Shown here: one piece after another, positions 5,992 to 32,712 of the stretch
Position numbering within the stretch: position 1 is the stretch's first letter
Layout: each line of letters begins with the position of its first letter
Origin: Zygnema cylindricum
Lineage: Eukaryota; Streptophyta; Zygnematophyceae; Zygnematales; Zygnemataceae
NCBI GenBank assembly: GCA_037447655.1
Contig: JBBHKE010000124.1
Location: forward strand, 1 to 40,426
Reading direction: 5' to 3'
Length of the DNA: 40,426 bases
Notes under the pieces: model-generated
What the model was told of the DNA's origin: nothing
What the model saw: only the letters and a program-made list of their open reading frames with translations
Databases searched by the model: none
Position numbers and translations under genes: made by a program

Positions 5992-6405
5992 ATGTTTTCT
6001 TGGCCTAAGGGAATTTTCCAATTTTTACCTAGTATTGTCTCAGGGCTCACATTTCGACACTGTCAAAAAAATGTTCATTTAGAAGATAACGATAGCAATG
6101 TAGGAAAAAAAAACCGTCCACAATATAGTGAAACTGATAGAGCACGGATCATCATAGATACATTAAAACAACGTAACCCAAACACAGAAAAAGCTTATCA
6201 AGTTGGTTTAAATCAGTATGAAAATTTTTGGAGTGCACAACGGCACCCAAATGTAGCTATTACACCTGATGGAGTTAGAATAACAAAAATAAAAGCCATA
6301 CCGCACTTATAGAATGGGTGAAAGGACTCCAAGACTCGTATAAAACAAAATTAGCCATAAAATGGAGGAGGGGGGGGGGGTGAAAATCTTAGAGATAACA
6401 ATATC
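5992..6405 (+). pseudogene. Crypton-type tyrosine recombinase, N-terminal segment
   Basis: This encodes the start of a Crypton-like recombinase: a hydrophilic leader, then a helical core-binding region including ARIIIDTLKQRNPNTEKAY and NQYENFWSAQ. Such a segment typically precedes the catalytic domain in Crypton and Ndc10-like proteins. At about 6300 a one-base frameshift ends the first ORF (stop at 6310-6312). The other frame continues with ALIEWVKGLQ and KLAIKWRR up to a G-run (6370-6380) that probably causes another slip. The segment ends where retrotransposon B is inserted. The ATG at 5992 is the first in frame, but an upstream exon is possible. It continues at 24673. Confidence 0.75.
6401..6405 (+). 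repeat. Left target-site duplication of element B
   Basis: ATATC directly precedes the TGTTGAAAT start of B. AAATC directly follows the B 3' LTR at 24673-24677. The two differ at one base, as expected for an old 5-bp duplication. Confidence 0.75.
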
Positions 6406-6610
6406 TGTTGAAATAACTAGATTTATATAGTATTTTATAGGTCTAAATAGCTCAGTAAAATCGAAAAAGAAAAAGGCAGACAACCTGCCTCCACCTCCTC
6501 TCCCTACCCACCATACTTGTTGTTGTCACTGAGGGATAGAGAGGGTGGTTGAGCCATGGCTGTCATAGCTAAGTAGGCAGGACTAAAGGGTGACTTACGT
6601 CACCCTCAAC

Positions 6611-6690
6611 AAAAGGTTGAGTTCGGTAGGACTTGAACCTCCGACCGGCAGAGCGCGGCGTAGCCGTTAGCGCTAACCAGTCTGTCGTGG
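6611..6690 (-). other. tRNA-like block antisense in the B LTR
   Basis: Read on the minus strand, this has a GGTTCAAGTCC word matching the Pol III B-box/T-loop consensus. About 45 nt upstream is a CTGGTTAGCGCTAACGG stretch resembling a D-arm/A-box. The copy in the 3' LTR is at 23871-23950. I could not fold a full cloverleaf with an acceptor stem, so this is a tRNA-derived or SINE-head-like relic, not a tRNA gene. Confidence 0.5.
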
Positions 6691-7190
6691 AAGTCCGTTA
6701 CGATATATTAGGTTTGATAATTATTTAAAGAGTGTTCAGACACTGAATTCGATTAAATAGCATGACGGACGAAAGAACATACAACCAAGTGTTATATAGT
6801 GCGAACATTGTCTCGCACGGAACAAATGAATCAGACATTTGTTTCGACGGCCTACATTTAATGTCATATTTTATCCGACGGCATATATCACTGCCGAGAT
6901 CGCGGAATGGTCATTTTGGCATTTATGGACGTGGCATGATGTGGCACCACGTGGAGGGATAACATTTGGTCGCAGGAATTCCGGGGAACATTAGGACGAG
7001 TTAAAAGTGGACACGTGTCCACTCAATGGCCTTGCCGTACACAAGCCGTATAAAAAGAACATCGGCCGTAGTACCTTTCAATACCCTACAGTCATCTGAT
7101 TGGTTCGTACGTCAATAGATAGGGGTTGTGAGAGAGGTTTACGACTTAGAGAATTTGGTAGGTAGTAACCTCTCTCCCTTTGAGAGTTTG

Positions 7191-7197
7191 TATAAAA
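7191..7197 (+). promoter_or_regulatory. TATA box of element B LTR
   Basis: TATAAAA lies about 220 bp before the LTR end (counted without element A). It is repeated in the 3' LTR at 24450-24456. The position fits a Pol II promoter giving a long U3 and a short R-U5. In elements A, C and E the equivalent word is TACAAAAG, and in D it is TATAAAT. Confidence 0.65.
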
Positions 7198-7290
7198 CTT
7201 GGCATCTTTGCCACCTTATAATTTATCGGCTGGTTGGCCGTTTTCACTAAATCTCTTTTCTACGGACTCAAGGTAGTCCACGCTACACAG

Positions 7291-8321
7291 TGTAGAAATA
7301 AAAGGTTATTTTAGTATTTTCTAGGTTTTGCAAAATGCAGAAAAGAAGCCGAGGCAGTTTGCCTCTAACTTCTCTCTTCAGCTCCCACACTTGTTGTAGT
7401 CAAAGAAGGTTGAAGAGGGAGCTAGAGCCATGGCTGCCTATGCTGATTAGAGATAGAGTTACGGGTTGTAGATTTTGGTAGATTTACCAAAATAGAAACT
7501 GACGGACCCTGGATTTGAACTTGGTACCTACCGTCCGTCAACATAGCCAGTAGCCTTAGCCAGTTTGTCTAGCATCATGGTTGGACATATAGGGTTTCGT
7601 AATTATTTAGATGTTAACACGTAGCCTATTTTCATTCAACGAAATATTTAGACATAGATACTGTTGTAATGTACGGCCACGGAACTTCCGAAACGGATAC
7701 CGCGCATTTTGTTTCGAAGGCGAAACAAATAGTGCGCAAGTATTTATGACGGCCATGATTGTAATCCGACTTCATCGGACGGCCACGAAGCATGCCGAGA
7801 TCTCGGAATGAGTTTTCGGCGGTTTATGGTCGACGTCACATCAATTGCCATGTGGCACAATCACATTGGATTTCGGCATCTTTGGGGATTCCGGGAACGA
7901 ATCCAAAAATGACATGTGTCGACTTGTTGGCCATGTTGTACAATGGCCGTACACAAAGTACATCGGTAATGTACCTTTATGTACGAAACACTCTTATGAT
8001 TGGTGCCGTACTTTAGTAGATAGAGTTTTAGAGAGAGATAGGACTTAGAAACTTTTGATAGATTAGACCATCGCTCCCAAAGAGCTTCTGTACAAAAGGT
8101 CAACTTTGACTCTTCATAACTTACTGCTCAGGTGAGCAAATTCAGAGATTCTTTTTGCTATAGACTTAGGGGAGTCTTGCCTTTACATGGGTGAAGGTGG
8201 TCAGAGTCTTTGTCTGCCAGGGTGGCAGTTATTCTTGCTGAAGCACAAAGGGGTCAGGGTTATCCTTGAGGCTTCGTGTGAGCTGCCTACTTTGAGGTCC
8301 TATGGAGGTCTCAGAGTTTCA
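7291..8321 (+). mobile_element. 5' LTR of element A
   Basis: A 1031-bp LTR, TGTAGAAATA to GAGTTTCA. It holds a GAGGCAG/CTGCCTC-type hairpin near the start, an AGCCATGGCT palindrome, an antisense tRNA-like block (about 7500-7585), an ATTTTGTTTCG/CGAAACAAAT hairpin (7706-7730), a perfect CCGAGATCTCGG palindrome near 7795, a GTAC hairpin (7949-7984) and a TACAAAAG box at 8091. The gag ATG at 8302 lies 20 bp inside its 3' end. Confidence 0.92.
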
Positions 8322-9300
8322 GGTTATGGGCCCACCATCTAGGGTGCCCATATTCAATGGAGCTGGCTTCATATACTGGGAAAGTATGATGACAGGAGCT
8401 CTATGTGAGAAACGATTTTAGGGAATAGTGAGTGGACGGGTGAGGTGTCCATCCACTCTTGGGATACCTCCAGGGTTTACAGGAGGCAGATTCACTAGAG
8501 ATGCAGATTCATCTTCAACGGAGGAGACAAAAGAAGGAGAGGTGGTGGACAAAGGAAAGGAGAAGGAGACAATCACACCAATAGCAACCGGTTCGGCATT
8601 CATGTCACCTATTCCGAGGAACGAGGAGAATGATATCGATACGTGGGACTTCAACAATATGGCGGCTAAGCACTTCATCCTCCGCCATCTTACTCAAGGG
8701 CTTGCATCTCCCCATTTGCAGGTAGAGAGAGCATCCGATATTTGGATGGCTCTCATAGAGATGTACCAAAGTGGTACGATTCAGCAACATTAATTGGCTG
8801 ATCAGAAAATTAAGGAGTATGTATACAAACGGGGGAAGATGTTGGATTTTTCAAATGAGCTTGCTACACTTTTCATGGAACTAGAAAGTGCTGGAAAAGT
8901 ATTTAGTGAAAAGGAAAAGGTTAACTGTTTACTAATGAAGTTACCTGAGGAGTTCGAGAACATAGTAAACCGTGTGCAGGATTTGGCGGACTCGAAGTGG
9001 ATTTGGAATTTAGTGGTAGGGATGATTCTCGTTCGGGAGAATACAATTGAGATCCGAAGGGGAGGAAAGAGTGGGCAAGCCTTGGCAGCCGTGACTGATT
9101 CGAGCAACAATGATTCCAGAAAATAGGTTGGAAATTATCGAGGGGAGGTGCAGAAAAATCAGACCAAGGAGTTCGGACCAAGGACTCCCAAGGGATTGTG
9201 CCATTTTTGTAAGAAACCCGGGCACTGTATGGCTAAATGCACTAAGTTAACCGAGCTGCGGTTAAAGGAGGGGCAGACTGGTGGACCCCCGAGAGGAAAG
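8302..9300 (+). pseudogene. Gag of element A (broken)
   Basis: The frame opens at the ATG at 8302 inside the LTR, with codons MEVSEFQVMGPPSRVP reading straight through the primer site. The capsid-like gag continues in the same frame with stops at 8419 (a Trp position in D), 8791 and 9124. It ends in a CCHC zinc knuckle, CHFCKKPGHCMAKC, about 9200-9241, which packages RNA. A one-base loss near 9300 shifts the frame into the acidic linker. Gag forms the virus-like particle. Compared with the open gag of D, the length and order are normal and only point changes break it. Confidence 0.85.
8322..8337 (+). other. Half-tRNA primer binding site of A (initiator Met)
   Basis: GGTTATGGGCCCACCA starts at the first base after the LTR. 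It is the exact complement of the anticodon arm and loop of plant-type initiator Met-tRNA as I remember it (GGUGGGCCCAUAACC core), not of a tRNA 3' end. The usual plant copia site, TGGTATCAGAGC, is absent. This implies priming by a 5' tRNA fragment cut in the anticodon stem-loop, as known for Drosophila copia, Ty5 and Volvox Osser. Confidence 0.85.
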
Positions 9301-10680
9301 AAAAGGCCCTTGTGACACAGGTAGATGAGGCGGAATCCGAGGGCGAGGACGATGAACTCCTATTGGATGAGGAGTTGGAAGCGAAAAGTGAGGTCGAAAT
9401 TCCACGAAAGCAGAAATGTGCTTTCAGTGGATTGAAAGGTGAAGCAGGCTAGATAGTAGATTCAGGTGCATCCATGCACATGTGTAAAGATAGGCACCTG
9501 TTCACTAAGATAAGAAAGATTCCCACCGTAGAGATAGAGTACGGGGATGGGAGGATAGTCACTACTACATTTGTTGGATCGGTAGATCTAAAAGTGTTAG
9601 TAGAAGGAAAGACATCTATAGTTACATTCTCCGATGTGTTGTTTATTCCGGAGCTGAACAAAAACCTCATCTCTACGTCTGTATTAGATTATAAGGGTTT
9701 TGATACTAGCACTAGGAAAGGAGTCTTTACTGCTAGTTTTGAGAATGAAGTTTATTTCACTGCTAAAAAAGGTAGCCAAGGGATGTTTAGGCTGATTTTA
9801 AGCAATGAAAAGAAGAAACTTTATTATGCTGGTATTCATGATACACTGTTGTGGCATAAGAGGCTTGGGCTTGTGAATCTAGATAAATTAAGAGAGATGA
9901 AAAAGATGGGAGTAGTGGAAGGGATTCAGTTCGGTGAAAGTGAGAATCTAAGTGATTGTAGTGGATGTGCTTAAGGTAAAGCACACATGTTACCCTTCCA
10001 AAAAACTGCCACTTATAAGGGAGAAAAGATTCTAGATTTAGTACACACAGATATATGGGGGCTGGCTAGAGTGCCATCACTCGGGGGGAAGAGATTTATG
10101 ATGACTATCACTGATGATTAGTCTCGGTATTCCAGGGTGTATTTTTTGAAAAATAAGTCAGAGGCTCAGGAATGTTTTAAACAATATAAAGCTAGAGTGA
10201 AAAACTCCATGAAACCTCAATCAACAGAGTAAGGAGTGACAATGGTGGAGAGTATACCTCTAACCAGTTTGAGGATTTTCTGAGAGAAGATGGAGTGCAA
10301 CACCAAAAGACAGTTCCTGAAAATCTTGAGCAGAATGGTGTAGCCGAAAGATTAAATAGAACACTGAGTGATAGTGCTAGGAGTATGTTGTCAGATAAAA
10401 AGATAAGAAAGAAGTTTTGGGCCGAAGCAATAAATTGTGGAAATTATCTCAAAAATAGAGTTCTTACTTCAGCAGTAAAAGGCCAAACACCCTATGAGAG
10501 ATGGACAGGCTGAAAACCAGATGTTTCACACTTAAAGGTTTTCGGTAGTCAAGTGTTCAGTTTAGACACAGATGGGTCAAACTGGAAGTTAGACCCAAAA
10601 GGAAAACCAGGATATCTACTAGGATATGATGAAGATTAAAAAGATATAGAGTCTACGATCTCAAAAGAGAGGATATTATC
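9301..10680 (+). pseudogene. Protease and integrase region of element A (broken)
   Basis: After the acidic linker comes the aspartic protease active site, DSGASMHMC (about 9460-9484). A Trp two codons before it is a stop. The ORF at 9474-9974 covers protease and the GAG-pre-integrase zinc region, with LWHKRLG and CSGC (the usual GHVN His is Leu here). The integrase core follows with HTDIWG as the first catalytic Asp, SDNGGEYTS-like coding as the second, and PENLEQNGVAERLNRTLSD carrying the Glu. Stops or shifts occur at 9972, 10120 and around 10210. From 10295 to 10513 the frame is open again. The integrase would insert cDNA, but this copy cannot. Confidence 0.85.
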
Positions 10681-10683
10681 CTA

Positions 10684-11049
10684 GTGAAGCATCTTGTGGT
10701 TATGGATGAAGGAAAATCTATAGATCCCTTTAAGCATACAAAGACAGTCAAAATCAGATTTGAGTCAGAAAATTCTGATGACTTTGAGCTTCCTAACTAT
10801 CCAAGATTTCAAGAAGATGATGATCTTGCAGGTATGGATCAGATCGAGAAGGACCCAAACGTGGAACCCCTAGTAATAACTCCAACCGAAGCGGAAGACG
10901 TGGTGGAAATCGACCCGGAATCAAGGGATAGGGGAGAAGTAGAAACTGTTCGAAAGAATCCAAGAGAACCATCTATTCCGGCAACCGAGTTTGAGGGAGG
11001 TATAGAAGCAGCAAAAGACTGGAAAAGAGACAAGTTAACAATAAGGTAA
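10684..11049 (+). pseudogene. Acidic linker between integrase and RT, element A
   Basis: 121 codons open in one frame, beginning MKHLVVMDEGKSIDPFKH and rich in Glu and Asp. This matches the variable C-terminal integrase extension of copia polyproteins. It ends with a stop and a frame change about 40 bp before the RT ORF, so it was once continuous with the ORF at 11094. No catalytic motif is expected here. Confidence 0.75.
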
Positions 11050-11093
11050 CCAAACTGTCTCACCCCGATGAACCTCAAACTTATAATGAGGCA

Positions 11094-12656
11094 ATGACTT
11101 GTCGTGAAAGAAACCGGTGGGAGACACCCATTAACGAGGAGATGGCCTCAATTATGGCTGTCGATACATGGGAATTGGTGGATTGTCCTCCTGATAGGAA
11201 GCCAATTGGGTGTAAGTGGGTATTTAAGCTGAAACTCAACACGGATAACACCATTGAGTGCTACAAGGCTCGGTTAGTGGCGAAGGGATTTACCCAGAAA
11301 GAAGAAATTGACTACAAAGAGACTTTTGCCCCGGTCGTCAGGTTTCCTTCGGTTCGAATACTTCTCAGTATGGCGGCAGCAGAAGACATGGAAGTGCATC
11401 AGATGGACATCAAGACGGCCTTCCTACATGGAGAGTTGGAAGAGGAAATTTTTATGCGACAGCCCGAAGGATTTGTGGAGCAAGGGGAGGAAAGCAAGGT
11501 ATGCCGATTGATCAAAACTTTGTATGGGCTGAAACAGGCGCCCCGACAATGGAACAAGAAGCTTGATGAGTTTCTTACAGGTTTGGGATATATTCGGATC
11601 AGCTCAGATCACTCAATTTATTTGTTTGAAGATGAGGAAGGAATTATTTTTATTGCAATTTATGTAGATGATTTGCTTGTTTTAAGTAAATCTATGGATA
11701 AAATAAATAAGTTGAAAAATGATTTAAAAGGAAGATTTGAGATGAAAGATATGGGAGAAGCAAAGTATATTTTGGGAATTCAGGTAGAAACAGACAGTGC
11801 AAAAAAAATAATAAGATTAACTCAAAAGGAGGCCATTGGAAACATGTTAGAAAAATTCCAAATGGACAAGGCTAATAGTTGTACCACTCCTATGGAATTA
11901 AAAAAGGGAAGTCAGGGGAGTGAGGAAGAGGGAGTTATAATCTTAGATGATGAGGTAGGCCCGGAAGAGAAAATATTTATGCAGACCATCCCTTATAGAC
12001 AAGTAGTGGGCAGCCTAATATATTTTATGAATTGTACCAGTCCGGACATAGCCGCAGCTATAGGAGTACTAAGTAGGAGTCTGAATGCTCCCACTAAGAA
12101 AGATTGGGAGGCAGCTAAAAGAATCCTTAGATATCTCATAGGGACTAAGAATCTATGGTTGCATTTGGGTGGTAACAATACTGACATCACCACTTGGAGT
12201 GATGCCAGCTATGGGGATGCTCCTATGAGGAGATGCACATCTGGATATGAATTGTATATGGGTGATTGGGCTTGCTGCTGGAGCAGCAAGCAACAAAAGG
12301 TCATTGCTCAGTCCACCATGGAGGTTGAGTACATGGCTTCTTCCTCTGCTATAAAAGAATTAATGTGGGTCAAGTCTTTGCTTGGTGAGCTTGGTCATCT
12401 TAAGAATGGTGTCCAAAAAGTGTTTTGTGATAATCAGGCTACCATTCCTATTTCTGCCAATCCTAAACATCACTTTAAAGCCAAACACATGGACATTAGG
12501 CTTAGCTTTATTAGGGAGAAAGTAGAAAACAAGATAATCAGTTTGGAGTATAAACCAGAGAGTGAAATGGTAGCTGATATGATGACCAAACCTGTTCCTT
12601 CCCCTAAACTAATTTTCTGTCGTGAGAAGTGTGGTCTTAAATTAAAGAGAGACTAG
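11094..12656 (+). CDS. Copia reverse transcriptase-RNase H (intact ORF, element A)
   Basis: A 520-codon uninterrupted ORF for the C-terminal half of copia pol. The RT starts near [10 protein letters not shown] and LVAKGFTQ (residues about 43-70). It has the fingers/palm Asp in MDIKTAFLHGELEEEIFM and the catalytic YVDD at 11661-11672 (about residue 190). A connection follows with PYRQVVGSLIYFMN. RNase H then has WSDASYGD, EVEYMA and CDNQATI as its acidic residues. It ends KLKRD at the normal stop, which overlaps the inverted repeat at the polypurine tract. RT copies the genomic RNA to DNA inside the particle. The ATG is only the first in frame, since in the native polyprotein this is internal. 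It is the only long intact enzyme frame in the window. Confidence 0.9.
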   Translation: MTCRERNRWETPINEEMASIMAVDTWELVDCPPDRKPIGCKWVFKLKLNTDNTIECYKARLVAKGFTQKEEIDYKETFAPVVRFPSVRILLSMAAAEDMEVHQMDIKTAFLHGELEEEIFMRQPEGFVEQGEESKVCRLIKTLYGLKQAPRQWNKKLDEFLTGLGYIRISSDHSIYLFEDEEGIIFIAIYVDDLLVLSKSMDKINKLKNDLKGRFEMKDMGEAKYILGIQVETDSAKKIIRLTQKEAIGNMLEKFQMDKANSCTTPMELKKGSQGSEEEGVIILDDEVGPEEKIFMQTIPYRQVVGSLIYFMNCTSPDIAAAIGVLSRSLNAPTKKDWEAAKRILRYLIGTKNLWLHLGGNNTDITTWSDASYGDAPMRRCTSGYELYMGDWACCWSSKQQKVIAQSTMEVEYMASSSAIKELMWVKSLLGELGHLKNGVQKVFCDNQATIPISANPKHHFKAKHMDIRLSFIREKVENKIISLEYKPESEMVADMMTKPVPSPKLIFCREKCGLKLKRD

Positions 12657-12669
12657 AAAATAAGGGGAG
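12657..12669 (+). other. Polypurine tract of element A
   Basis: AAAATAAGGGGAG, between the pol stop and the 3' LTR. It lies in the loop between CTAGAAAATA (12653-12662) and TATTTTCTAG (12694-12703). Confidence 0.88.
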
Positions 12670-13702
12670 TATAGAAATAAAAGGTTATTTTAGTATTTTC
12701 TAGGTATTGCAAAATGTAGAAAAGAAGCCGAGGCAGTCTGCCTCTAACTTCTCTCTTCAGCTCCCACACTTGTGGTAGTCACTGAAGGTTGAAGAAAAAG
12801 CTAGAGCTATGGCTGCCTATGCTGATTAGAGATAGAGTTACGGGTGGTAGATTTTGGTAGATTTACCAAAATAGAAACTGACGGACCTTGGATTTGAACT
12901 TGGTACCTACAGTCCGTCAACATAGCCAGTAGCCTTAGCCAGTTTGTTTGGCATCATGGTTAGACATATAGGGTTTCGTAATTATTTAGATATTAACACG
13001 TAGCCTTTTTTCATTCAACGGAATATTTAGATATAGATATTGTTGTAATGTACGGCCACGGAATTTCAAAAAACGGATACCGCGCATTTTGTTTCGAAGG
13101 CGAAACAAATAGTGCGCAAGTATTTATGACGGCCATGATTGTAATCCGACTTCATCGGACGGCCACGAAGCATGCCGAGATCTCGGAATGAGTTTTTGGC
13201 GGTTTATGGTCGACGTCACATCAATTGCCATGTGGCACAATCACATTGGATTTCGGCATCTTTGGGGATTCCGGGAACGAATCCAAAAATGACATGTGTC
13301 GACTTGTTGGCCATGTTGTACAATGGCCGTACACAAAGTACATCGGCACATGTACCTTTATGTACGAAACACTCTTATGATTGGTGCCGTACTTTAGTAG
13401 ATAGAGTTTTAGAGAGAGATAGGACTTAGAAACTTTTGATAGATTAGACCATCGCTCCCAAAGAGCTTCTGTACAAAAGGTCAACTTTGACTCTTCATAA
13501 CTTACTGCTCAGGTGAGCAAATTCAGAGATTCTTTTTGCTATAGACTTAGGGGAGTCTTGCCTTTACATGGGTGAAGGTGGTCAGAGTCTTTGTCTGCCA
13601 GGGTGGCAGTTATTCTTGCTGAAGCACAAAGGGGTCAGGGTTATCCTTGAGGCTTCGTGTGAGCTGCCTACTTTGAGGTCCTAAGGAGGTCTCAGAGTTT
13701 CA
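12670..13702 (+). mobile_element. 3' LTR of element A
   Basis: A 1033-bp LTR aligned to 7291-8321. Its first dinucleotide is TA instead of TG, and the gag ATG of the 5' copy reads AAG here (about 13683). Both are post-insertion mutations. It ends GAGTTTCA and is followed by the CACAT target copy. Confidence 0.92.
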
Positions 13703-13707
13703 CACAT

Positions 13708-13830
13708 GGGTGCAGTCAAACTATTAGTTTTCTATCTTGGGCAGCAATGATTGTGGCTTGAAGTGAGTTAGTTATAAACTATCTAGAGGCTTGCAGTATT
13801 CTGTCGTCTAATGGAGGACACATAATTGCA
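13708..13830 (+). mobile_element. 5' LTR of B, second part
   Basis: 123 bp from GGGTGCAGTCAAAC to ATTGCA, aligning with 24550-24672. It restores the B 5' LTR after excision of A and one target copy, giving 1008 bp, equal to the 3' LTR. In the 3' copy the terminal coding words read ATGGAGGACTTTGAATTGCA. In this 5' copy two codons have changed, creating a stop right after the gag start. Confidence 0.9.
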
Positions 13831-13845
13831 GGTTATGGGCCCACC
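13831..13845 (+). other. Half-tRNA primer binding site of B
   Basis: GGTTATGGGCCCACC immediately follows the LTR end. It is the same 15-nt complement to the initiator Met-tRNA anticodon arm as in element A. Confidence 0.85.
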
Positions 13846-15223
13846 CTTTAGGGTGCACAACTTCAATGGATCAGGGTTCATCTATTTGGAAGCCATGATG
13901 ATAAAGGCTTTGTGCAAAAAACGATACTGGAGTATCGTTAGTGGACAAGTGAAACGTCCACCTTCTGGAACTCCACCAGATTGAGTAAGGTTTCTTGCAG
14001 CAGCTACTGCTTCCGCGGAGGAGGCAGATGATGGGGACAACAGTGTGTTAGAAAATGGGAAAGGGAAAGAGACACCCCTCACTCCTATTGCCACGGTACC
14101 GAGAGAGGTGACGTGAAGACCATGGAGAACGATACTCAAATGTGGGAAGACATGAACATAGCTGCCAAGAACTTCATTCTAAGGCACCTCACTCAAGCTT
14201 TGGCCACCCCTCATCTTCACATTTACAAGGCCGAAGAGTTTTGGGTGAGTTTAGTGGAGATCTATAGAGCTGGTACTATTCAGGAGCTCTAGTTGGCTGA
14301 GCAAAAGCTAGTGAGTTACAGTTACAAAGGAGGAAAGATGTTAGATTATTGTAATGACCTTTCTTGTTTGTATATGGAGATGGAAAGTGCCGGGTGAACA
14401 GGTATAATGAAGATGAAATTTTACACTCTCATCATGAAGTTACCAGATGAGTACGAGAACATAGTGCACCGAGTACAGGAAATGACTAAAAGTTCATGGA
14501 AGTGGAATATAGTGGTCCGGATGATACTTGTGGAGGAAAACACCATGGAGATTATGCGAGGAGGAAAGAGCATTCAAACTCTAGCTGCAAGAGGGGATCG
14601 ATGGGGGAAGGACCCGAAGAAAGCGTACAATGGAGTAACAGATCAACCTGCAGGACTAAGGCCTCCAAAGGGCTTTTGTCATTTTTGCAAAAAGCCGGGA
14701 CACTTTATCTTAGATTGTGTCAAGCTATCGAAGCTGAGGCTCCAAGAGAATCATGGAGAGGGTTCTTCCGAAGGGAAGAAAAAGGCACTTGTGGTTACAA
14801 AAGTGAAAGGAGAAACCGAGGACGAGTCCTTTGAGGAGGACAGGGAACTTCTTCTTGACGAGAGTCTGGAGGAGAAGGAGATCCCTTGGAGACAGAAGTG
14901 TGCCTTTAGAGCAATTCGAGAAGCTCCACAAGAAGGATGGATCATCGACTCAGGTGCATCCATGCATATGTGTCGTGACAAGGAACTCTTCACTAAGCTA
15001 AGAAAGATCCCTACTGTAGAGATAGAGTATGGGGATAGGAGAGTGGTTACTACAGATCTAGTGGGGTCACTAGATCTGAAAGTCTTAGTGAAGGGTAAGT
15101 CTTCTATACTCACATTCTCAGATGTACTTTACATTCCTCAGCTGAGTAAAAATATTTTCTCTACATATGTGTTAAATGACAAAGAGTTTGATACCTTCAC
15201 TAGAAAGGGAGTCTTTACAGCTA

Positions 15224-15228
15224 ACTAT
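15224..15228 (+). repeat. Left target-site duplication of element C
   Basis: ACTAT before C pairs with AGTAT at 21707-21711, one mismatch. The B protein frame continues across the deleted insert. Confidence 0.75.
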
Positions 15229-16296: not shown

Positions 16297-16309
16297 CTCC
16301 CCTTATTTT
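16297..16309 (-). other. Polypurine tract of element C
   Basis: CTCCCCTTATTTT on the plus strand, i.e. AAAATAAGGGGAG in element orientation, between the pol stop and the 3' LTR. Confidence 0.85.
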
Positions 16310-23651: not shown

Positions 23652-23664
23652 AAAATAAAGGGAG
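23652..23664 (+). other. Polypurine tract of element B
   Basis: AAAATAAAGGGAG, next to the pol stop. It is bracketed by CTAGAAAATA (23648-23657) and TATTTTCTAG (23690-23699). Confidence 0.87.
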
Positions 23665-24672
23665 TGTTGAAATTATTAGATTTATATAGTATTTTCTAGG
23701 TCTAAATAGTTGAGTAAAATCGGAAAAGAAAAAGGCGGACAGCCTGCCTCCACCTCCTCTCCCTACCCACCATACTTGTTGTTGTCACTGAGGGATAGAG
23801 AGGGTGGTTGAGCCATGGCTGTCATAGCTAAGTAGGCAGGACTAAAGGGTGAATTACGTCACCCTCAACAAAAGGTTGAGTCCGGCAGGACTTGAACCTC
23901 CGACCGGCAGAGCGCGGCGTAGCCGTTAGCGCTAACCAGTCTGTCGTGGAAGTCCGTTAGGATATATTAGGTTTGATAATTATTTAAAGAGTGTTCAAAC
24001 CATGAATTCGATTAAACAGCATGACGGACGAAAGAACATAGAACCAAGTGTTATATAGTGCGAACATTGTCTCGCACGGAACAAATGAATCAGACATTTG
24101 TTTCGACGGCCTACATTTAATGTCATATTTTATCCGACGGCGTATATCAATGCCGAGATCGCGGAATGGTCATTTTGGCATTTATGGACGTAACATGACG
24201 TGGCGCCACGTGGAGGGATAACATTTGGTCGCAGGAATTCCGGGGAACATTAGGACGAGTTAAAAGTGGACACGCGTCCACTCAATGGCCTTGCCGTACA
24301 CAAGCCGTATAGAAAGTACATCGGCCGTAGTACCTTTCTATACAATACAATCATCTGATTGGTTCGTACGTCAGTAGATAGGGGTTGTGAGAGAGGTTTA
24401 TGACTTAGAGAATTTGGTAGGTAGTAACCTCTCTCCCTTTGAGAGTTTGTATAAAACTTGGCATCTTTGCCACCTTATAATTTATCGGCTGGTTGGCCGT
24501 TTTCACTGAATCTTTTTTCTACGGACTCAAGGTAGTCCACGCTACACAGGGGTGCAGTCAAACTATAAGTTTGCCATCTTGGGCTGCAATGATTGTGGCT
24601 TGAAGTGGGTTAGTTAAAAACTATCTAGAGGCTTCGTGTATTCTGTCGTCCAATGGAGGACTTTGAATTGCA
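23665..24672 (+). mobile_element. 3' LTR of element B (uninterrupted)
   Basis: A 1008-bp LTR, TGTTGAAATT to TTGAATTGCA. It is the intact reference that shows where A entered the 5' copy. It contains the tRNA-like block (23871-23950), the AACAAATG hairpin (about 24080-24105), a TATAAAA box (24450-24456) and the terminal gag start MEDFELQ. Confidence 0.92.
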
Positions 24673-24859
24673 AAATCATCCAAACTTTTTAACAAGAGTC
24701 CAAAAAAAATACATCAAATTTAAAAAAAAATAACCATGAAAACCGTCAAGAAGGCATACGAGAAGCGTATTCTCTTGAAGATTACAAAGGGTTTTCAACA
24801 TTCTGGTTGGAGTTGGCCGAAAGAAAGCACAAGGAAAAAAAGTTGGGGATGGAACCATA
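24673..24859 (+). pseudogene. Crypton recombinase, middle segment stranded between B and D
   Basis: 187 bp between the B 3' LTR and the left edge of D. Read in the frame that continues from 6405, it gives a short stretch with one TAA. It then gives EAYSLEDYKGFSTFW, LELAERKHKEKK and LGMEPY up to the D target site. The codons join across D to TSIEVG at 30115. Taken alone it looks like meaningless spacer. Its identity comes from the continuity of frame over both excised transposons. It would belong to the helical region before the catalytic domain. Confidence 0.7.
24855..24859 (+). repeat. Left target-site duplication of element D
   Basis: CCATA, repeated perfectly at 30110-30114 on the other side of D. 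Confidence 0.92.
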
Positions 24860-26913
24860 TGAAATTCTATGGGCTCCATTGCCACACAGAATTCGCAGGT
24901 CCAAAGGAAGCTAATCTAGATAGTGCCGACTCCAACTTGATATAAACCCAAATGATTGACCCCTTGACAATCAGAACCCCAATATAGCTTCACCCTTGTG
25001 AATTAACACTTTCTGTGTGCTCAGTTCCACCACAGAATGCAAAGTTAGAATATGAGATTTGGACACATTCACCCACTTTGACTTTCCCTAAGAAATGCAG
25101 CCACCCAGGCAAGCAAAGACTCTGACCGACTACACCCCTGTGTAGCTTGGACTCCCCTGAGTCCGCAGCAACAAGAATTGTTGTTCTGAGACAAGTGTTG
25201 GTACTGAAGATGAAGAAGATGCAGCAGTAGTCATCGTAGAACAAATCAAGAGAGGAAGCTTCCACAAATACCGATGGCTGAACAGCAACTTTGACAGACT
25301 ATAACTTTCAGAAAAACGCTCTAAACATCCTGAAAATTTGCCACAATGTAGATAACATACAAAGGAACACACACACAAAATTTCAATCAATTCCGCTCAC
25401 AAATCTGTGAGATATGTAGAAATGAAATTACATAAAACTGAGTGTACAGTTTTCATATCATTTGTTCCTAAAAATCAAATTCACTAAGTCCTGCTTTTAT
25501 ACACCGAAACTACACTAAGCTGTACGGAGGCATTCCAGCCGTACATCTAACATTCTATCACACATATTTACACCGAAGTTCAGACAACGTAAAGTGATAA
25601 TGATCTAGTCACGCCTCGTCACTATTTGTTGGCGGCGGCTGTCAGCGGTCCGATTAGAGGATTTGGCACCGTAGAATTGACTTCACGAAGTCCAGAGGTC
25701 CTGCCGAATTTCCGTACGTCCACGGAGGACATACTCACGCATTCTCCCAAGTGACGACACGTGTCCCAAGTGTGAATGAACCGTGAACTCCCAACTTCAC
25801 TGTCACACTAATTTCGGTAAGTACTGAACCGAACTCAACCAAAAATAGCTTAAGTCCTGAACAGCTCTCTCTCACAGCTGAGGCATAAAGAGGACTAAAG
25901 CTTTCTAAAAACAACAAGAATCACTGAATTTGGTCAACTGAATTGATAGTTATGGCTGGCCAAAGTTTGACATTTATACAAGGTGCTCTCTGGGAGAGGC
26001 AGCTACCTACCAAAAATATTCTAAGTTCTAAACCCCTCTCTAAACCCTCTAGTACTGAGGTACGGACCAATCACATTACTGTATAGTACATAAAGGTACA
26101 GATGCCGGTGTACCTTTTGTACGGACATCGTACGACATGGCTCAAAAGTCAACAATTGTCCTATCTGGATTCGCTCTTGTATTCTCCGGAATTCCTGCCT
26201 TCAAATCTTATCTCTCCACGTGGCGCCAGGTCATGCCGCGTCAGAAAACGGTACCGTACAAGAAAGTACTAGTGTCCGGAGTACTTTCTGTGCGTACATT
26301 GTACGATGTCGCCATAGTGCGACATTTGTCACTTCCGGATTTGTTTTCTGCCGTTCCGTAAATTCCGTAATCCAGTACGTTGTTGCCACGTGTCATCCGG
26401 AGTGGCGGAGTCCGCAAACCGCCAAATTGTCCTTTCCTCGAGACCGGCGCTAACCACGGCCGTCCGATTCATATAGAGATTAAATACGAACCGTCGAAAC
26501 AAATGTCCGTACTATTTGTTTCGTCCGGTACTAATAGTACAACTGATTCTATGTTCTATAGACCGTAACCCAGTTAAATGGAATTCCCTACCTGTAACTA
26601 TATAAATATCTATCAAACCCTATATGTTTTAGCACTGGTCCTAGACTAAATGGACAAAGCTAACTCCTATGGGACGATTCACCGACGGTAGGTACTAGGA
26701 TCAATTCCTGGGTCCGTCAACTGCCTTTTTGGTAAACATACCTTTATTATCTATTCCTGTCTCTCTGGAGAGCCTAGGCAGCCATGGCTCTAGCTCCATT
26801 TCCAGCCTTCAGTGACTACGACAAGTGTGGGGGCTTGGAGAAGGGAGTCAGGGGCAGACTGCCTCTACTCTTTTCTATCTAATAAAGACCTAGAAAATAC
26901 CCAAATATCAACA
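24860..26913 (-). mobile_element. 3' LTR of element D (contains a solo LTR)
   Basis: Plus-strand edges are TGAAATTCTATGG and AAATATCAACA. It aligns with 28800-30109 except for a 743-bp insertion at 25179-25921. It carries hairpin GAAACAAAT/ATTTGTTTC (26496-26522), GTAC hairpins (26088-26124 and about 26254-26296), a TATAAAT box (25972-25978, minus) and a tRNA-like block (about 26680-26725). The gag start codon of the LTR is present here too and opens a 69-codon read-out into the flank (24885-24676). Confidence 0.9.
25179..25916 (-). mobile_element. Solo LTR of an unrelated family inside the D LTR
   Basis: 738 bp beginning TGTTGTT and ending AACAACA, flanked by perfect 5-bp AGAAT repeats (25174-25178 and 25917-25921). 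The other D LTR has one AGAAT at this point, so the insertion is certain. It has no coding sequence. A TATAAAAG word on the minus strand (about 25492-25499) suggests minus orientation. It does not resemble the copia LTRs here in sequence. It could also be a small LTR-derived element, but no internal domain is visible. Confidence 0.88.
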
Positions 26914-26926
26914 CTCCCCTTATTTT
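26914..26926 (-). other. Polypurine tract of element D
   Basis: CTCCCCTTATTTT on the plus strand (AAAATAAGGGGAG in element sense). It is flanked by CTAGAAAATA (26890-26899) and TATTTTCTAG (26921-26930). Confidence 0.87.
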
Positions 26927-26941
26927 CTAGTCTACTTCCTT

Positions 26942-27772
26942 TCAACTATTACAAACAAAATAAACAAAACACTCCCTCCCCTTTTTCCTTTTTCTTTTCT
27001 TTTTCCTTTTATATAACTTAAGAAATATGCTCTCGTATTTAAAACAATGCATTAGATGAAATGAAATAATAATTCCATCACACATTTCATTTAGCATCCC
27101 ACTTATTATAAATCCGAGCAAAGTTTTTATCCACCTCACCTCTTTTCCATCCACACTAAATCCGATTTCCCTCTTGCAATTCAAACAGCCAGCCCCATCT
27201 CCAATCTGCAACACACATCCTGAGGCTAACCCTTTTACAGGCACACCTTCATAAATGTCATCACTCCCTTTAGTGATGTCAAACCCATTACCCCCAAAAC
27301 ATGAACTTTCCTCACTCTCTCCCATGGATTTCTTTCCACTCTCACTTTCTAAATTTATTCCCAATAAATATTTATCCTCCCCTAAACCTTTCATTAAATA
27401 TTCCTCTTCTCCCTTATCCTTTAAAACCCCTTCTAATTTCACATCTCCCCTTTCCTCGTAATCCGTTGAAGTCTCCCTTTCCGACCAGTTTTCTAATTCC
27501 AAACTACCTATAAAATTATCCTCATTAATTTTATTTTTCCCATTTTCACTTATTGATCCTAGTTCTGACTTTCTCATTTCTAAGTCATACACTTTACACT
27601 CCTCCACATCCTCAAGTACCTCCTCTCTCTTTACTTCCCTTATACCTCCAAAAGCACACTGTTGCCTTCGTGGAATTTTTTGTGTACTTTTCTCTCTTCT
27701 CCATTCTACCGATGTGAAGAAGCTCCAAGATTTTTTCATCCTCTTTCTCCTCTTCCCTTTCTTCCTCCTCAT
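26942..27772 (-). CDS. Condensed pol remnant ORF of element D (276 codons)
   Basis: This starts with an ATG immediately after the gag stop and in the same frame, so gag and this ORF are separated by a single TGA. It begins with a Lys/Arg/Glu-rich stretch and has PRRQQCAFGGI, which in other copies precedes the protease. Short relics of pol then follow in the right order: CKVYDLEMR (integrase end), GLGEDKYLLGINLESESGKK (RT palm end), DITKGSDDIYEGVPV (RNase H WSDASYGDAP region) and VRWIKTLLG. There is no protease DSG, no integrase core and no YVDD. A basic Lys-rich tail closes it. No enzymatic role is likely. Whether it is translated is unknown. Confidence 0.65.
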   Translation of the reverse strand: MRRKKGKRRKRMKKSWSFFTSVEWRREKSTQKIPRRQQCAFGGIREVKREEVLEDVEECKVYDLEMRKSELGSISENGKNKINEDNFIGSLELENWSERETSTDYEERGDVKLEGVLKDKGEEEYLMKGLGEDKYLLGINLESESGKKSMGESEESSCFGGNGFDITKGSDDIYEGVPVKGLASGCVLQIGDGAGCLNCKREIGFSVDGKEVRWIKTLLGFIISGMLNEMCDGIIISFHLMHCFKYESIFLKLYKRKKKRKRKKGRECFVYFVCNS

Positions 27773-28825
27773 TCACACTCCAACTTCTAAGTTCTTCCAA
27801 TGAGGACACTCCTCCATATAGTGACCCGGTTTCCTACAAGCGAAGCAAACCCCTTGTTTCAAAGCTCCCCTTTCTTTTCCTCTCCCTCTCTTTCCACCGA
27901 AGTTCCGATAAGGTTTACCTTTGTCCTTCTTCCTTTCATCACGCTTCCGCTCGTCACCGCCGTTCCTCACATCACGCTTCCGCCAGTCACCACCAGCTGT
28001 AAATGCAGTCACCCTTTCACTTCCCCTACGAAGCTCCAAAGTGCTTTCTCTCACAAGAATTATTCCCATGGTAATGCTCCAAGTCCACGAGGAGACATCC
28101 ATTCCCTGCATACGGTAAATGATGTCTTCGTACTCATATGGAAGCTTTATGATTAGTGTATTAATCTTTCTCTCCTCAGATTCTACATATCCCGTACTAG
28201 CAAGCTCAACATATAACACAGCAATATCATTGCAAAACTCTATCATGCTACCGCCTTTATAAACATAGGCCTCTATCTCTTGTCTTACTAACTGCTGCCT
28301 CTGTATAGTCTCACTCTTATAAATCTGAATTAGTGTGTCCCAAATTTCCGACGACTTGGTTAGATTTAAAAGAGTGATAGCTATAGACTTAGACACATAT
28401 CTAAGTATGAGATGTTTTGCTATAGTGTTTTTATATTCCCAAATTTTTCTATCATTTTCTTCAGTTTTTGGTTCAGTTATAACCCCCACAAGTGGAACCG
28501 TAGGCGAGAGCCTAGCTCCCGTCACCATAGGTGTCCCTTTATCCTTCTCCCCTATTTCCCCTTCCATGGTAATGATCTTCCTTTCACCTTCCGTTGCACC
28601 TGAACTCCGGTTGGTTTTCTGGGCAGCCCCAGATGATTCTCCATAGTGATCTCCTCCAAAGCCCGGTGGCGGACACCTCACTTGTCCCGAAACAATTCCC
28701 CACAAGTGCTTCTCGAAAAGCAATCCCTCCATCGTGAACTCCCAATAAGTGAAGTCTGTTCCATCGAACATAGGCACCCTAGATGGTGGGCCTATAACCT
28801 GAAATTCTATGGGCTCCATTGCCAC
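27773..28825 (-). CDS. Gag of element D (intact 350-codon ORF)
   Basis: The start codon at 28825 lies 26 bp inside the 5' LTR. The first codons, MAMEPIEFQVIGPPSRVP, cross the LTR end and the primer site. The capsid-like region continues with YWEFTMEGLLFEKHLWGIV (the retrotransposon gag N-terminal pattern), LSPTVPLVG, a helical TIAKHLILRYVSKSI segment, LTKSSEIWDTLIQIYKS and LIIKLPYEYEDIIYRMQ. A basic region and a CCHC knuckle, CFACRKPGHYMEEC, lie near the C-terminus (about residues 328-341). It would assemble RNA-containing particles. All equivalent gag genes in A, B and C have stops, so the openness of this one is notable. It ends with TGA followed directly by an ATG. Confidence 0.9.
   Translation of the reverse strand: MAMEPIEFQVIGPPSRVPMFDGTDFTYWEFTMEGLLFEKHLWGIVSGQVRCPPPGFGGDHYGESSGAAQKTNRSSGATEGERKIITMEGEIGEKDKGTPMVTGARLSPTVPLVGVITEPKTEENDRKIWEYKNTIAKHLILRYVSKSIAITLLNLTKSSEIWDTLIQIYKSETIQRQQLVRQEIEAYVYKGGSMIEFCNDIAVLYVELASTGYVESEERKINTLIIKLPYEYEDIIYRMQGMDVSSWTWSITMGIILVRESTLELRRGSERVTAFTAGGDWRKRDVRNGGDERKRDERKKDKGKPYRNFGGKRGRGKERGALKQGVCFACRKPGHYMEECPHWKNLEVGV
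28785..28799 (-). other. Half-tRNA primer binding site of D
   Basis: In element sense GGTTATAGGCCCACC, one mismatch from the A and B sites, directly after the LTR end TTTCA. Confidence 0.8.
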
Positions 28826-30109
28826 ACAGAATTCGCAGGTCCAAAGGAAGCTAATCTAGATAGTGCCGACTCCAAGTTAATATAAACCCAAATGATTGAC
28901 CCCTTGACAATCAGAACCCCAATATAGCTTCACCCTTGTGAATTAACACTTTCTGTGTGCTCAGTTCCACCACAGAATGCAAAGTTAGAATATGAGATTT
29001 GGACACATTCACCCACTTTGACTTTCCCTAAGAAATGCAGCCACCCAGGCAGGCAAAGACTCTGACCGACTACACCCGTGTGTAGCTTGGACTCCCCTGA
29101 GTCCGCAGCAACAAGAATCACTGAATTTGGTCAACTGAATTGATAGTTATGGTTGGCCAAAGTTTGACATTTATACAAGGTGCTCTCTGGGAGAGGCAGC
29201 TACCTACCAAAAATATTCTAAGTTCTAAACCCCTCTCTAAACCCTCTAGTACTGAGGTACGGACCAATCACATTACTGTAAAGTATATAAAGGTACATAT
29301 GCCGGTGTACCTTTTGTACGGACATCGTACGACATGGCTCAAAAGTCAACAATTGTCCTATCTGGATTCGCTCTTGTATTCTCCGGAATTCGTGCCTTCA
29401 AATCTTATCTCTCCATGTGGCGCCAGGTCATGCCGCGTCAGAAAACGGTACCGTACAAGAAAGTACTAGTGCCGGAGTACTTTCTGTACGTACATTGTAC
29501 GATGTCGCCATAGTGCGACATTTGTCACTTCCGGATTTGTTTTCTGCCGTTCCGTAAATTCCGTAATCCAGTACGTTGTTGCCACGTGTCATCCGGAGTG
29601 GCGGAGTCCGCAAACCGCCAAATTGTCCTTTCCTCGAGACCGGCGCTAACCACGGCCGTCCGATTCATATAGAGATTAAATACGAACCGTCGAAACAAAT
29701 GTCCGTACTATTTGTTTCGTCCGGTACTAATAGTACAACTGATTCTATGTTCTATAGACCGTAACCCAGTTAAATGGAATTCCCTACCTGTAACTATATA
29801 AATATCTATCAAACCCTATATGTTTTAGCACTGGTCCTAGACTAAATGGACAAAGCTAACTCCTATGGGACGATTCACCGACGGTAGGTACCAGGATCAA
29901 TTCCTGGGTCCGTCAACTGCCTTTTTGGTAAACATACCTTTATTATCTATTCCTGTCTATCTGGAGAGCCTAGGCACCCATGGCTCTAGCTCCCTTTCCA
30001 GCCTTCAGTGACTACGACAAGTGTGGGGGCTTGGAGAAGGGAGTCAGGGGCAGACTGCCTCTACTCTTTTCTATCTAATAAAGACCTAGAAAATACCCAA
30101 ATATCAACA
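28800..30109 (-). mobile_element. 5' LTR of element D
   Basis: A 1310-bp LTR, element sense TGTTGATATTTGG to GAATTTCA. It has a TATAAAT box (29169-29175, minus), the GAAACAAAT hairpin (29692-29718) and a tRNA-like block (about 29878-29920). It is nearly identical by eye to the 3' LTR apart from the solo-LTR insert, so D is younger than A, B and C. Confidence 0.92.
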
Positions 30110-30132
30110 CCATACACTAGCATTGAAGTGGG
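30110..30132 (+). pseudogene. Crypton recombinase, end of interrupted exon
   Basis: After the second CCATA copy the Crypton frame continues with TSIEVG and ends at a GTATGT donor (30133). The exon breaks after the second base of a Gly codon. The next exon (30602) opens with the missing third base, so the phases agree. Confidence 0.65.
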
Positions 30133-30601
30133 GTATGTGTCGATAAATATACTAAATTTTGTATTTCAATTTTTTCGATTCATGTTGTTTTCTACTTAAC
30201 ACTTTATTTTATATGGTGCATTATTTTTGAGTTTGTTATCCGATTTTCTTATTTTAGGGTTTATATTTTAATTTTTGACTTTATATTATATTTTCTTTAA
30301 TATGTTTTTTCGGGATTCAAAAAGTTATTAGAAGTTAACTCCAAAGTCTATTTAAAACATAGACGAAAATTATGTGCGATTTTTGTTTTTGCGAGAAAGT
30401 ATACATTCTTTTAAAATAAAGCTCCAATTATGTTTGTAACATTGTCATTTTTGTTGGTTTGTGTTGTTTTGTTTATTTTTTTTGTGATGCAATTTTTGTT
30501 TTTTGGGTGAAAGGGTATATTTTTTTTCAAAAAAAACTCTCACTATATTTGTAACATTATCATTTTTTGTCTCTTTGATGTTTTGTTTTTGTTTTTTGTA
30601 G
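30133..30601 (+). other. Crypton intron 1
   Basis: 469 bp, GTATGT to TTTGTAG, T-rich throughout. The phase agrees between both exons. No ORF of interest lies inside. Confidence 0.65.
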
Positions 30602-30755
30602 CAATCAATTTATCATGAACCATGCATTTCTCACTCGACGCGATGATTTGAGAAATGGTCAGTTAGCGGATGTTTTTTCATATGATCTTCCTTATCTTGG
30701 GCCGGACAAGGGTTATGTTTTGGCGATGGTTACAAAAAATGGGAAAACTAATGTG
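30602..30755 (+). pseudogene. Crypton recombinase exon: first catalytic Arg region
   Basis: This encodes NQFIMNHAFLTRRDDLRNGQ, LADVFSYDLPYLG and VLAMVTKNGKTNV with no stop. The RRDDLRNGQLADV block matches the tyrosine-recombinase box that holds the first catalytic Arg. GKTN followed by NGRAEFIG in the next exon is a hallmark of Ndc10-like/Crypton proteins. It ends at a GTAAGT donor in phase 0. Confidence 0.8.
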
Positions 30756-30874
30756 GTAAGTAATCTATAATATTGGAGCTTTAACGAAATGTGTATTTTG
30801 CAATGTTTTGTGCATATCCCAAAAACAAATTTTACTATTTTTTTCGGTTTTTTTACGGTATTTTTTAAATGCAG
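30756..30874 (+). other. Crypton intron 2
   Basis: 119 bp, GTAAGT to ATGCAG, T-rich near the acceptor. It joins GKTNV to NGRAEF in frame. Confidence 0.8.
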
Positions 30875-31207
30875 AATGGTCGTGCGGAATTTATCGGATG
30901 CATGCGTCACTTAGACTTTCTTATTTGTCCGGTAGGTGCTGTGGCCCAACAGTTTTTTTGGAGGTGGGAATTAGCTACAAATAAAAATGCAATTCCCAAT
31001 TTTTCAACAAAAGAATCCTGGTACGGTGAGCCTTTCACGGAAGGGAGAGTTTTAGCAAAGACCAAGAAGGAAAAGAAACACCGTTCATGCAACCTTTGCT
31101 ATAATACACAGATTCAGTATATAAAAATAACATTACAAACCAAAAATATTTCCTTGTCTCGTAAAACCCATGCTGGACGTGGTCAAGGAGCAACTATGCA
31201 ACATTTG
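30875..31207 (+). pseudogene. Crypton recombinase exon: Ndc10-like core with HxxR box
   Basis: 111 codons open, with NGRAEFIGCMRHLDFLICPV, AQQFFWRWELA, ESWYGEPF and THAGRGQGATMQ. The order GRxE, RH, LCPVGALA, FFxRW, W, then THAGRSQGA is the signature I know from Ndc10 domain II proteins and fungal Cryptons. THAGR supplies the catalytic His and second Arg of tyrosine recombinases. The enzyme would cut and rejoin DNA through a phosphotyrosine link. The 3' border is unclear: a GTTTTT donor at 31208 is weak, and no good acceptor AG precedes the next coding block. Confidence 0.8.
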
Positions 31208-31292
31208 GTTTTTATCATGCATTTATTTGAAATAATGGAGTTTTGTTATCTATGTTCTAATTTTCCAAATTTTGATTTTTTTTTTTGGTAAA

Positions 31293-31520
31293 TATTTCAA
31301 TGCTGATCGAGAAGTCATCAAAGTGATGGGACGTTGGACATCCGACCACTTCTCATACTCATATGTCACAGATTTGCCAACAGACATTCTTCTTCAAGCT
31401 TCTGACCACGAAAACAACACCAGAAAATATTTTCTACCTCTTTCCAAAGTGAACCCCCCTACTACTCTTTGTGTTATGTTTTGGCCGTGGGTCGAAACGA
31501 CATATGCGGAGCTGCCAACG
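31293..31520 (+). pseudogene. Crypton recombinase exon: GRW and nucleophile Tyr
   Basis: This codes for FNADREVIKVMGRWTSDHFS, then YVTDLPTDIL with the Tyr expected to be the nucleophile. It continues with YFLPLSKVNPPTTL and FWPWVETTYAELPT. GRW, Y(V/L)T.LP, LP....PP..L and (F/W)PW(V/I)E occur in this order in Ndc10-like Crypton proteins. The frame differs from the previous exon by one base, and about 85 bp lie between them, so either a decayed intron or a frameshift separates them. It ends at a GTATGT donor (31521) in phase 0. Confidence 0.78.
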
Positions 31521-31967
31521 GTATGTTTATAAAAACTCTCACCATTTATATCATTACTTTTTGTGTTAAGTAATCTGTGGTGTTTTATGTTCGTCGCATT
31601 TTTTTTTTATATTATTCTATTTTTTTTCTTGGATCACAAATTTTGATTTTTTTTTGTTGTTTTTTGTTTATTTTCATTTTTTTGCCCTTTCAATTATTTT
31701 TCTATTTTTTGAATTGTTTTCCTGTTTTTTTGTTGTTTTTTATATGTTTTTTGGGTAATTGTTTTTGCTTTAATTGTTTCCGTTTTTTTCTCTTTCCCAC
31801 TTAATCTCCTTTTGTTTTTTTTCTTTTTTTCTCTCTATGTCCCATTTTTTTTTTGTTTTATATTTGATATTTTTTTTTATATATATTTAATGTATTATTA
31901 TTTTGTTTTTGGTTTATATATAATGAAATATTCTTCTATTAAAACATACAAATGTTTTTTTGTGCAG
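31521..31967 (+). other. Crypton intron 3
   Basis: 447 bp, GTATGT to TGTGCAG, extremely T-rich on this strand. Both flanking exons are in phase 0. The ORFs seen here are phenylalanine-rich artefacts of the T content. Confidence 0.75.
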
Positions 31968-32438
31968 AAAAATGCTCGAGCTTCTAAATCTAAAAGAGAT
32001 TTAAGCGCACAAAATTTCCTTCACACCATGTTATGGCTCACAAGTTTGTTTTTACAAGACCATGTTTTTTTCCATGTTTTTTTCCAGGATTTATTTCCTG
32101 ATCTTCCTATCTTCAAGCACAAACTGTCCCAATCTCGCTTGTGGTTGTCGTTCAAAGACGAAGTCAAAAAAACTTGTCATGAAGCATCAGACATGTGGGC
32201 TTCAATTGCTGATGTCGAAGCAAATGTGCCGATTACAATCTCACAAGTGGGAAAATTAATTGATTCGCTATTCATGTGGAGTGAAACTTGTGGAAGAAAG
32301 TTTGATTATATGGGAGAGGAAATGTGTTATGTAAAAGAGACAGTTTCAAGTTTGAAAGAGAAAATGTGTAATATAGATGACAAGTTAACCCCTATTATGC
32401 AGGTGATGGACGGTCAAGGAGAGACGTTACATGAGTGA
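31968..32438 (+). pseudogene. Crypton recombinase C-terminal exon
   Basis: An open frame of 156 codons: KNARASKSKRDLSAQ, NFLHTMLWLTSLFLQDH, LFPDLPIFKHKLSQSRLWLS, then an amphipathic, coiled-coil-like region (MGEEMCYVKETVSSLKEKM) ending in ETLHE. NFL..L..L..LFLQD is found after the catalytic domain in Ndc10-like proteins. I do not see a GCR1-type DNA-binding domain, which many fungal Cryptons have. It may be lost or lie in the decayed 32439-32715 sequence, where short frames (e.g. LGGMFPLAKKV) persist. Confidence 0.7.
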
Positions 32439-32712
32439 CAACCTTCTCAAAATCAAAATAGACCATCTGAAAGTGAATCAGCCTGCGACTCAAAGTGATG
32501 TGGTGAAATTTGGTCACAAAACCCGTGTGAACTATACGCGAATGAAACGGGTCCATAACAATGTACATCTTTGCCTACAACAATAGTACACATTGGTTAC
32601 AACCACCATATGAGATGCCATGAGGAGGTTGCAAACCCTAGGAGGAATGTTTCCATTGGCAAAGAAAGTACAAAATTTGAAAAACCCAACTAACTTAAAA
32701 AACACTTTGAAG
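32439..32712. other. Downstream of the Crypton ORF, no clear gene
   Basis: 274 bp with only short open stretches. It may be the decayed end or 3' region of the Crypton. It runs directly into the 92-bp tandem array. Confidence 0.5.

Follow-up and report, generated by a model that had tools for sequence, protein, structure and literature searches.

A dead copy of a probable CryptonF-type element, interrupted by retrotransposons, in the genome of the green alga Zygnema cylindricum

Cryptons are DNA transposons with a tyrosine recombinase (YR). The part of the 2011 Crypton survey by Kojima and Jurka (PMC3212892) that we draw on names only fungi, animals, and stramenopiles as hosts. According to the same part, CryptonF elements encode a single protein that combines a tyrosine recombinase with a GCR1_C domain; their termini carry short direct repeats, neither inverted repeats at the termini nor long direct repeats are obvious, and there is no reverse transcriptase. 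CryptonS, CryptonA, and CryptonI are tyrosine recombinase DNA transposons as well. For Arabidopsis, a review of its elements (PMC7385966) states that no description of Cryptons existed. Here we analyze a window of 40,426 nucleotides (nt), i.e., the whole studied stretch of contig JBBHKE010000124.1 of Zygnema cylindricum. We conclude with high confidence that it contains a defunct, nested member of a multi-copy CryptonF-type family (NDC10_II and C-terminal GCR1_C) residing in the genome of a green plant, probably a streptophyte.

The Zygnema family agrees with CryptonF in the domain combination and, as judged by eye, in the absence of reverse transcriptase; in the terminal repeats, which are imperfect here, the agreement is tentative. 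It differs from CryptonF in having a green-plant host, a length of 6.8–7.3 kb, and ACCG-like repeats of 3–5 b, whereas most fungal repeats are 6 b long in the portion of PMC3212892 used; its four spliceosomal introns may be a further difference. That portion also separates the family from CryptonS, which lacks GCR1_C, and from CryptonA and CryptonI, whose domain make-up is distinct. Ndc10/Cbf2 of budding yeast shares with the family the NDC10_II domain, which here covers nearly the whole profile. That yeast protein (Cbf2/Ndc10) belongs to the centromere and has not preserved its catalytic site (PMC3212892, same portion), whereas the Zygnema family keeps R, H-x-x-R, W, and Y.

The window gene was delineated using the protein of a sibling copy, locus L003. 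All tblastn matches of this protein in the window lie in collinear order on the + strand: residues 1–95 at 5992–6276, 101–131 at 6279–6380, 140–201 at 24675–24860, 201–258 at 30582–30755, 259–367 at 30875–31198, 372–445 at 31299–31520, and 446–613 at 31968–32483. Pfam NDC10_II was found on three window exons in profile order, and only the match to profile positions 82–178 passes the Pfam cut-off alone. The stretches 5992–6405, 24673–24859, and 30110–32482 are collinear parts of one interrupted gene. Continuity across the inserts was judged from sibling copies and not by joining the window's own pieces. The layout of the window copy is as follows.

4843–5378, + strand: non-coding 5' portion of the element, corresponding roughly to nt 400–990 of the sibling on contig C715 (blastn of C715 against the window: 4870–5378, 80% identity; 4843–4869 assigned by eye against sibling sequence)
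5379–5701, no strand: small insert, another repeat, lacking in siblings aligned across both of its flanks
5702–5991, + strand: 5' leader of the element
5992–6405, + strand: exon 1, first part, sibling residues 1–131 (tblastn with the L003 protein)
6406–24672, no strand: first insert (B), a long terminal repeat (LTR) retrotransposon that itself contains further, nested copia-like elements
24673–24859, + strand: exon 1, second part, sibling residues 140–201 (tblastn; 27 blastn rows in 26 loci, 80–95% identity)
24860–30109, no strand: second insert (D), an LTR retrotransposon
30110–30132, + strand: end of exon 1 (from sibling splice sites and the window sequence)
30133–30601: intron 1
30602–30755, + strand: exon 2, with the first-Arg box RRDDLRNGQLADVF at 30636
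30875–31204, + strand: exon 3, NDC10_II 82–178 (Pfam E 1.1e-7), box THAGRGQGA at 31166
31301–31520, + strand: exon 4, NDC10_II 188–264 (Pfam E 1.6e-5), GRW at 31329, Tyr of YVTDLP (31362)
31968–32482, + strand: exon 5, broken off, NDC10_II 268–312 (Pfam E 2.3e-4)

A preliminary description, made from the letters of the window alone, had read the three pieces as one intron-bearing Crypton/Ndc10-like tyrosine recombinase gene split by nested retrotransposons. The tblastn order together with the uninterrupted siblings bears out the split gene, NDC10_II on the window exons and on the L003 protein bears out the class, and the five-exon L003 gene with its GT-AG splice sites bears out the introns. 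The boxes that it listed (first Arg, THAGR, GRW, and YVTDLP) are all present; the first of them reads RRDDLR. The middle piece, 24673–24859, for which it had looked to intact copies, proved to be related to them. The Pfam matches of the window exons and of the L003 protein led us to reject a chance motif match.

The family to which this copy belongs was sought in the host assembly (352.8 Mb in 2689 contigs, of which the window is C97). A search with 30110–32438 located at least 61 matches, spread over 38 contigs that include the one of the window; this count is a lower bound, with 40 of 156 candidates scored. The matches other than the window itself are 77–93% identical to the query, and one of the contigs with a Crypton copy is 826 kb long. 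We considered 28 loci (L001–L028), where L001 is the window; L024 has no 3' anchor match and was left out, leaving 26 siblings. In L003 (contig C647), five exons of 620, 154, 341, 220, and 942 nt encode 758 amino acids (aa) without a stop, and the introns have phases 2, 0, 2, and 0, all with GT-AG borders. The protein matches NDC10_II with E = 1.2e-38 (residues 205–497, profile positions 29–313 of 317) and GCR1_C with E = 2.2e-9 (residues 666–735); weak matches below the cut-off are Phage_integrase, Phage_int_SAM_1, and DUF1664. Taken alone, the last exon of L003 and that of L018 also match GCR1_C (E of 6e-10 and 3.4e-10, respectively). The preliminary description was mistaken in stating that the element lacks an obvious GCR1-type domain: these siblings carry it, and the window copy is truncated.

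L003 is the only sibling without a stop, gap, or insert, its own frame serving as the reference. L018 is free of stops and gaps and contains 49 additional nt; its exon 5 stays open until the stop codon. Five others (L002, L004, L007, L011, and L017) each contain one or two stops along with one or two gaps. Some gaps in siblings are missing data, in loci that end before the stop codon. The ratio of nonsynonymous to synonymous substitution rates (Ka/Ks) is 0.19 for L003 versus L018, and its median is 0.29 (range 0.19–0.92) across the 91 pairs that 14 chosen copies form. Exons 1–4 are more conserved than introns in comparisons of L003 with L018, L009, and L017. These figures indicate that purifying selection acted in the past on the family gene.

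The window copy stands beside the L003 group in the DNA tree, where support is weak (84/82). Four siblings lie at a distance of 0.097–0.108 from it, and L018 at 0.169. Over 7318 b, the copies on C224 and C447 share 97.2% identity.

Both large inserts in the window start with TG and end with CA. The first is flanked by ATATC (6401–6405) and AAATC (24673–24677), the second by CCATA at 24855–24859 and again at 30110–30114, as the preliminary description had it for both. In the 26 siblings, using a pattern with four changes allowed, the first insert site is uninterrupted in 24 (it was not found by the pattern in L027 and L028) and the second in 25 (not found in L028). Because the siblings run uninterrupted there, we regard 6406–24672 and 24860–30109 as LTR retrotransposon inserts. 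The exact ATATC and CCATA are present at these sites in most siblings, not in all. Since both inserts sit inside the Crypton, it is older than either of them. The LTR stretches of the first insert, 6406–7290 and 23665–24549, are 96% alike; their distance of 0.040, compared with 0.011–0.013 for the LTRs of the second insert, suggests that the first insert is the older one. A repeat map and reading frames show several copia-like elements in both orientations within 6406–24672.

The window copy is dead, because both of its ends are truncated, it carries two large inserts, its exon 1 frame is broken, a splice junction is lost, and there is a premature stop. The exon 1 frame breaks after residue 95. 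Compared with the siblings, the intron 3 donor and the end of exon 3 are deleted, the acceptor before exon 4 reads CAA in place of the CAG of L003, and a premature TGA lies in exon 5 at 32436–32438. The element starts before 4843 and breaks off at 32482, and the window retains about nt 400–4290 of the 6788-nt sibling on C715. L003 continues for 145 residues past the break and closes with GCR1_C; the window copy lacks this domain because of the truncation at 32482.

The affiliation of the host was examined through light-harvesting genes, and the green-plant-like character of the genome that the preliminary description had suspected was corroborated. There are 88 matches to PF00504 (chlorophyll a/b light-harvesting) in the genome, and contig C1116 carries an element copy at 187–189 kb and light-harvesting genes at 87–115 kb. 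For the light-harvesting gene of locus L036, the best Protein Data Bank (PDB) chain matched in a single stretch is 5xnl_3 (E 1.1e-125); a longer chain, 9vfj_2 (LHCI-2), stands above it through two stretches, both among 60 of 86 rows. The matched chains are named chlorophyll a-b binding protein, chloroplastic. We take 5xnl_3 to be pea Lhcb3, which presumably indicates streptophytes. Ten long reading frames taken from the flanks of elements held no gene diagnostic of the host. This evidence bears on whether the element could have come with contamination of the assembly from a fungus or an oomycete, groups from which CryptonF has been reported (PMC3212892, in the part used here). The presence of copies on 38 contigs, including one of 826 kb, and the linkage on C1116 argue to the contrary, so we rejected contamination and consider it extremely improbable.

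Outside this genome, relatives are few. The window exons have no match at E 0.001 among 5.8 billion proteins. Residues 190–758 of L003 gave one match in the protein collection, P0001 (782 aa), with 37% identity over 98% of this query part. P0001 has NDC10_II and GCR1_C, and its boxes are altered relative to the family: RG to HG, HAGR to HLGC, GRW to GRL, and Tyr to Leu. It has thereby lost both Arg residues (first and second) together with the Trp and the Tyr. P0001 is perhaps a domesticated gene derived from CryptonF. Using alignment A1 we found three more relatives among archive and metagenome proteins, P0002–P0004, with 26–29% identity over 51–81% of the query. Like the family, they have NDC10_II (three of three) and GCR1_C (two of three), and THAGRGQGA, GRW, and Tyr are common to all. 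R, H-x-x-R, W, and Y are kept both in the sibling family aligned with P0002–P0004 and in the window copy; judging by this alignment, they are the putative catalytic residues. Among viral contigs the window exons have no relative, and 144 stretches found with alignment A2 fit one of two patterns, none of them being confirmed.

Complete elements are 6788 nt (C715, the 3' end placed by an exact string) and 7272 nt (C224) long, with 2.1–2.6 kb after the gene that contains tandem repeats. With up to four changes, the 5' end GTAGTGGTATTAGACATTGGGGG has 18 matches and the 3' end TCTCCGCGCGAAGCAGTATACCG has six in the fetched loci. In aligned 5' regions the end is visible in 14 of 16, and the upstream flanks are mostly unrelated. 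ACCG stands at both ends of the C224 copy and CCG at those of the C447 copy. By eye, without a profile scan, no transposon-like gene besides the YR exons was seen among frames of at least 90 aa in the two complete copies. The latter observation is relevant to the reading of the family as DIRS, Ngaro, or PAT retrotransposons in which only the YR gene is visible. Such elements also bear a tyrosine recombinase and are present in green algae; a Chlamydomonas sequence stands among eukaryotic YRs in a tree legend in the portion of PMC3212892 at hand. No polymerase (pol)-like frame was seen by eye among the frames of at least 90 aa in the two complete copies, however, and for this reason we rejected a DIRS-like retroelement. 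Moreover, GCR1_C marks CryptonF in the same portion of that survey, and spliceosomal introns would argue against an RNA intermediate. We assign a retroelement origin a very low probability.

In C2533 and C990 copies are joined in tandem, with the 3' end directly abutting the 5' end. This is as expected from a circle entering an existing copy; unequal crossing over would also give such tandems. In L016 (C990), three element 5' ends linked by 3'-end remnants lie within 140 b (oriented 3148–3284). The abutting ends read ATACC-GTAGT-GGTAT.

Four of the 14 non-tandem 5' flanks (L012, L022, L023, and L027) stop at an identical point of one repeat, and the element of L014 lies in the same target repeat, further along. 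The unfilled target repeat was found in three loci (L009, L014, and L032). The preliminary description had proposed a search of this genome for intact copies and empty sites; the gene of sibling L003 is open end to end. The 3' flank of the C224 copy resumes the target repeat from the same point, and its 5' flank does not belong to this repeat. At L023:4738–5559, immediately upstream of an element copy, there are 75-b tandem repeats of the target repeat.

We also considered an immobile host gene family of the Ndc10/Gcr1 kind. It would agree with the purifying selection on the gene and with P0001, which is open over 782 aa and in which the catalytic Arg, Trp, and Tyr are replaced. What speaks against it are the spread of matches over 38 contigs, ends that recur next to mostly unrelated flanks, the tandems, the filled and unfilled target repeats, and the retained recombinase boxes. 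For the sibling family we regard a host gene as highly unlikely, while the same reading may apply to P0001. A mobile CryptonF-type element accounts for the family; we infer its mobility from these sequence features.

Several observations weigh against this interpretation. No movement was observed. Among the siblings, 25 of 26 depart from L003 by a stop, gap, insert, or splice-site change, in some cases solely owing to a truncated locus. The decayed copy L013 has no difference in divergence between exons and introns, and exon 5 has diverged about as much as the introns. A PDB sequence search gave no match, five rows of a second search (E 0.3–0.83) were taken as chance, and the structure model of the relative P0003 is poor (mean predicted local distance difference test score, pLDDT, of 37.9). 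No 5' end is visible in L017 and L025, and the final bases of the 3' end seem to be missing from C1042. Nor are the short direct repeats perfect: non-tandem 5' flanks end with ACC in seven of 14 and with CC in eight of 14. The target repeat of C224 is present on the 3' side only, therefore its two flanks are not from one site; this copy is rearranged or has a more complicated history. Inverted arms of 5 b at the join were reached in 581 of 5000 shuffles, therefore they are a hint only.

On the proposed mechanism, the recombinase would excise the element as a circle at the abutting ends, and the circle would integrate into targets with a common ACCG-like core. Integration would leave short direct repeats and sometimes head-to-tail tandems, and GCR1_C may bind the element DNA. 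The window copy cannot move in this way: its two ends and GCR1_C are missing, its exon 1 is broken, and one splice junction is lost.

No earlier report of a green-plant Crypton was found in the titles and abstract openings of the papers listed, with most subscription journals and Repbase outside the scope of the search. The host group is new, as are, within the literature covered, the size and intron content; the domain set itself is that of the known CryptonF. If the absence of earlier reports holds, the host range of eukaryotic tyrosine recombinase DNA transposons gains a kingdom. With its dozens of matches, complete element ends, and open gene, this single genome would make target choice, circle formation, and domestication testable in a plant. 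A broader scenario is tentative and, taken as a whole, rather doubtful: CryptonF may have been present in the green lineage throughout, or may have reached it from fungi or oomycetes; it may have spread by site-preferring integration at ACCG-like sites in one repeat, with recent activity, and in some lineage it may have yielded the noncatalytic host gene P0001, echoing yeast Ndc10/Gcr1.

Some features of the window lie at the margins of the Crypton copy. In the window, the 5' part of the Crypton starts right next to an LTR element that stops at 4842; the true 5' end of this copy was not located. The equivalents of positions 5378 and 5702, which border the small insert, are only about 20 b apart in L002, L006, L009, and others (blastn), and parts of 5379–5701 were found again elsewhere in the fetched loci. 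Directly past the break of the element lies an array of 92-b tandem repeats (32656–33388). It is followed at 33443–36994 by frames that by eye resemble a long interspersed nuclear element (LINE) reverse transcriptase with an N-terminal zinc finger.

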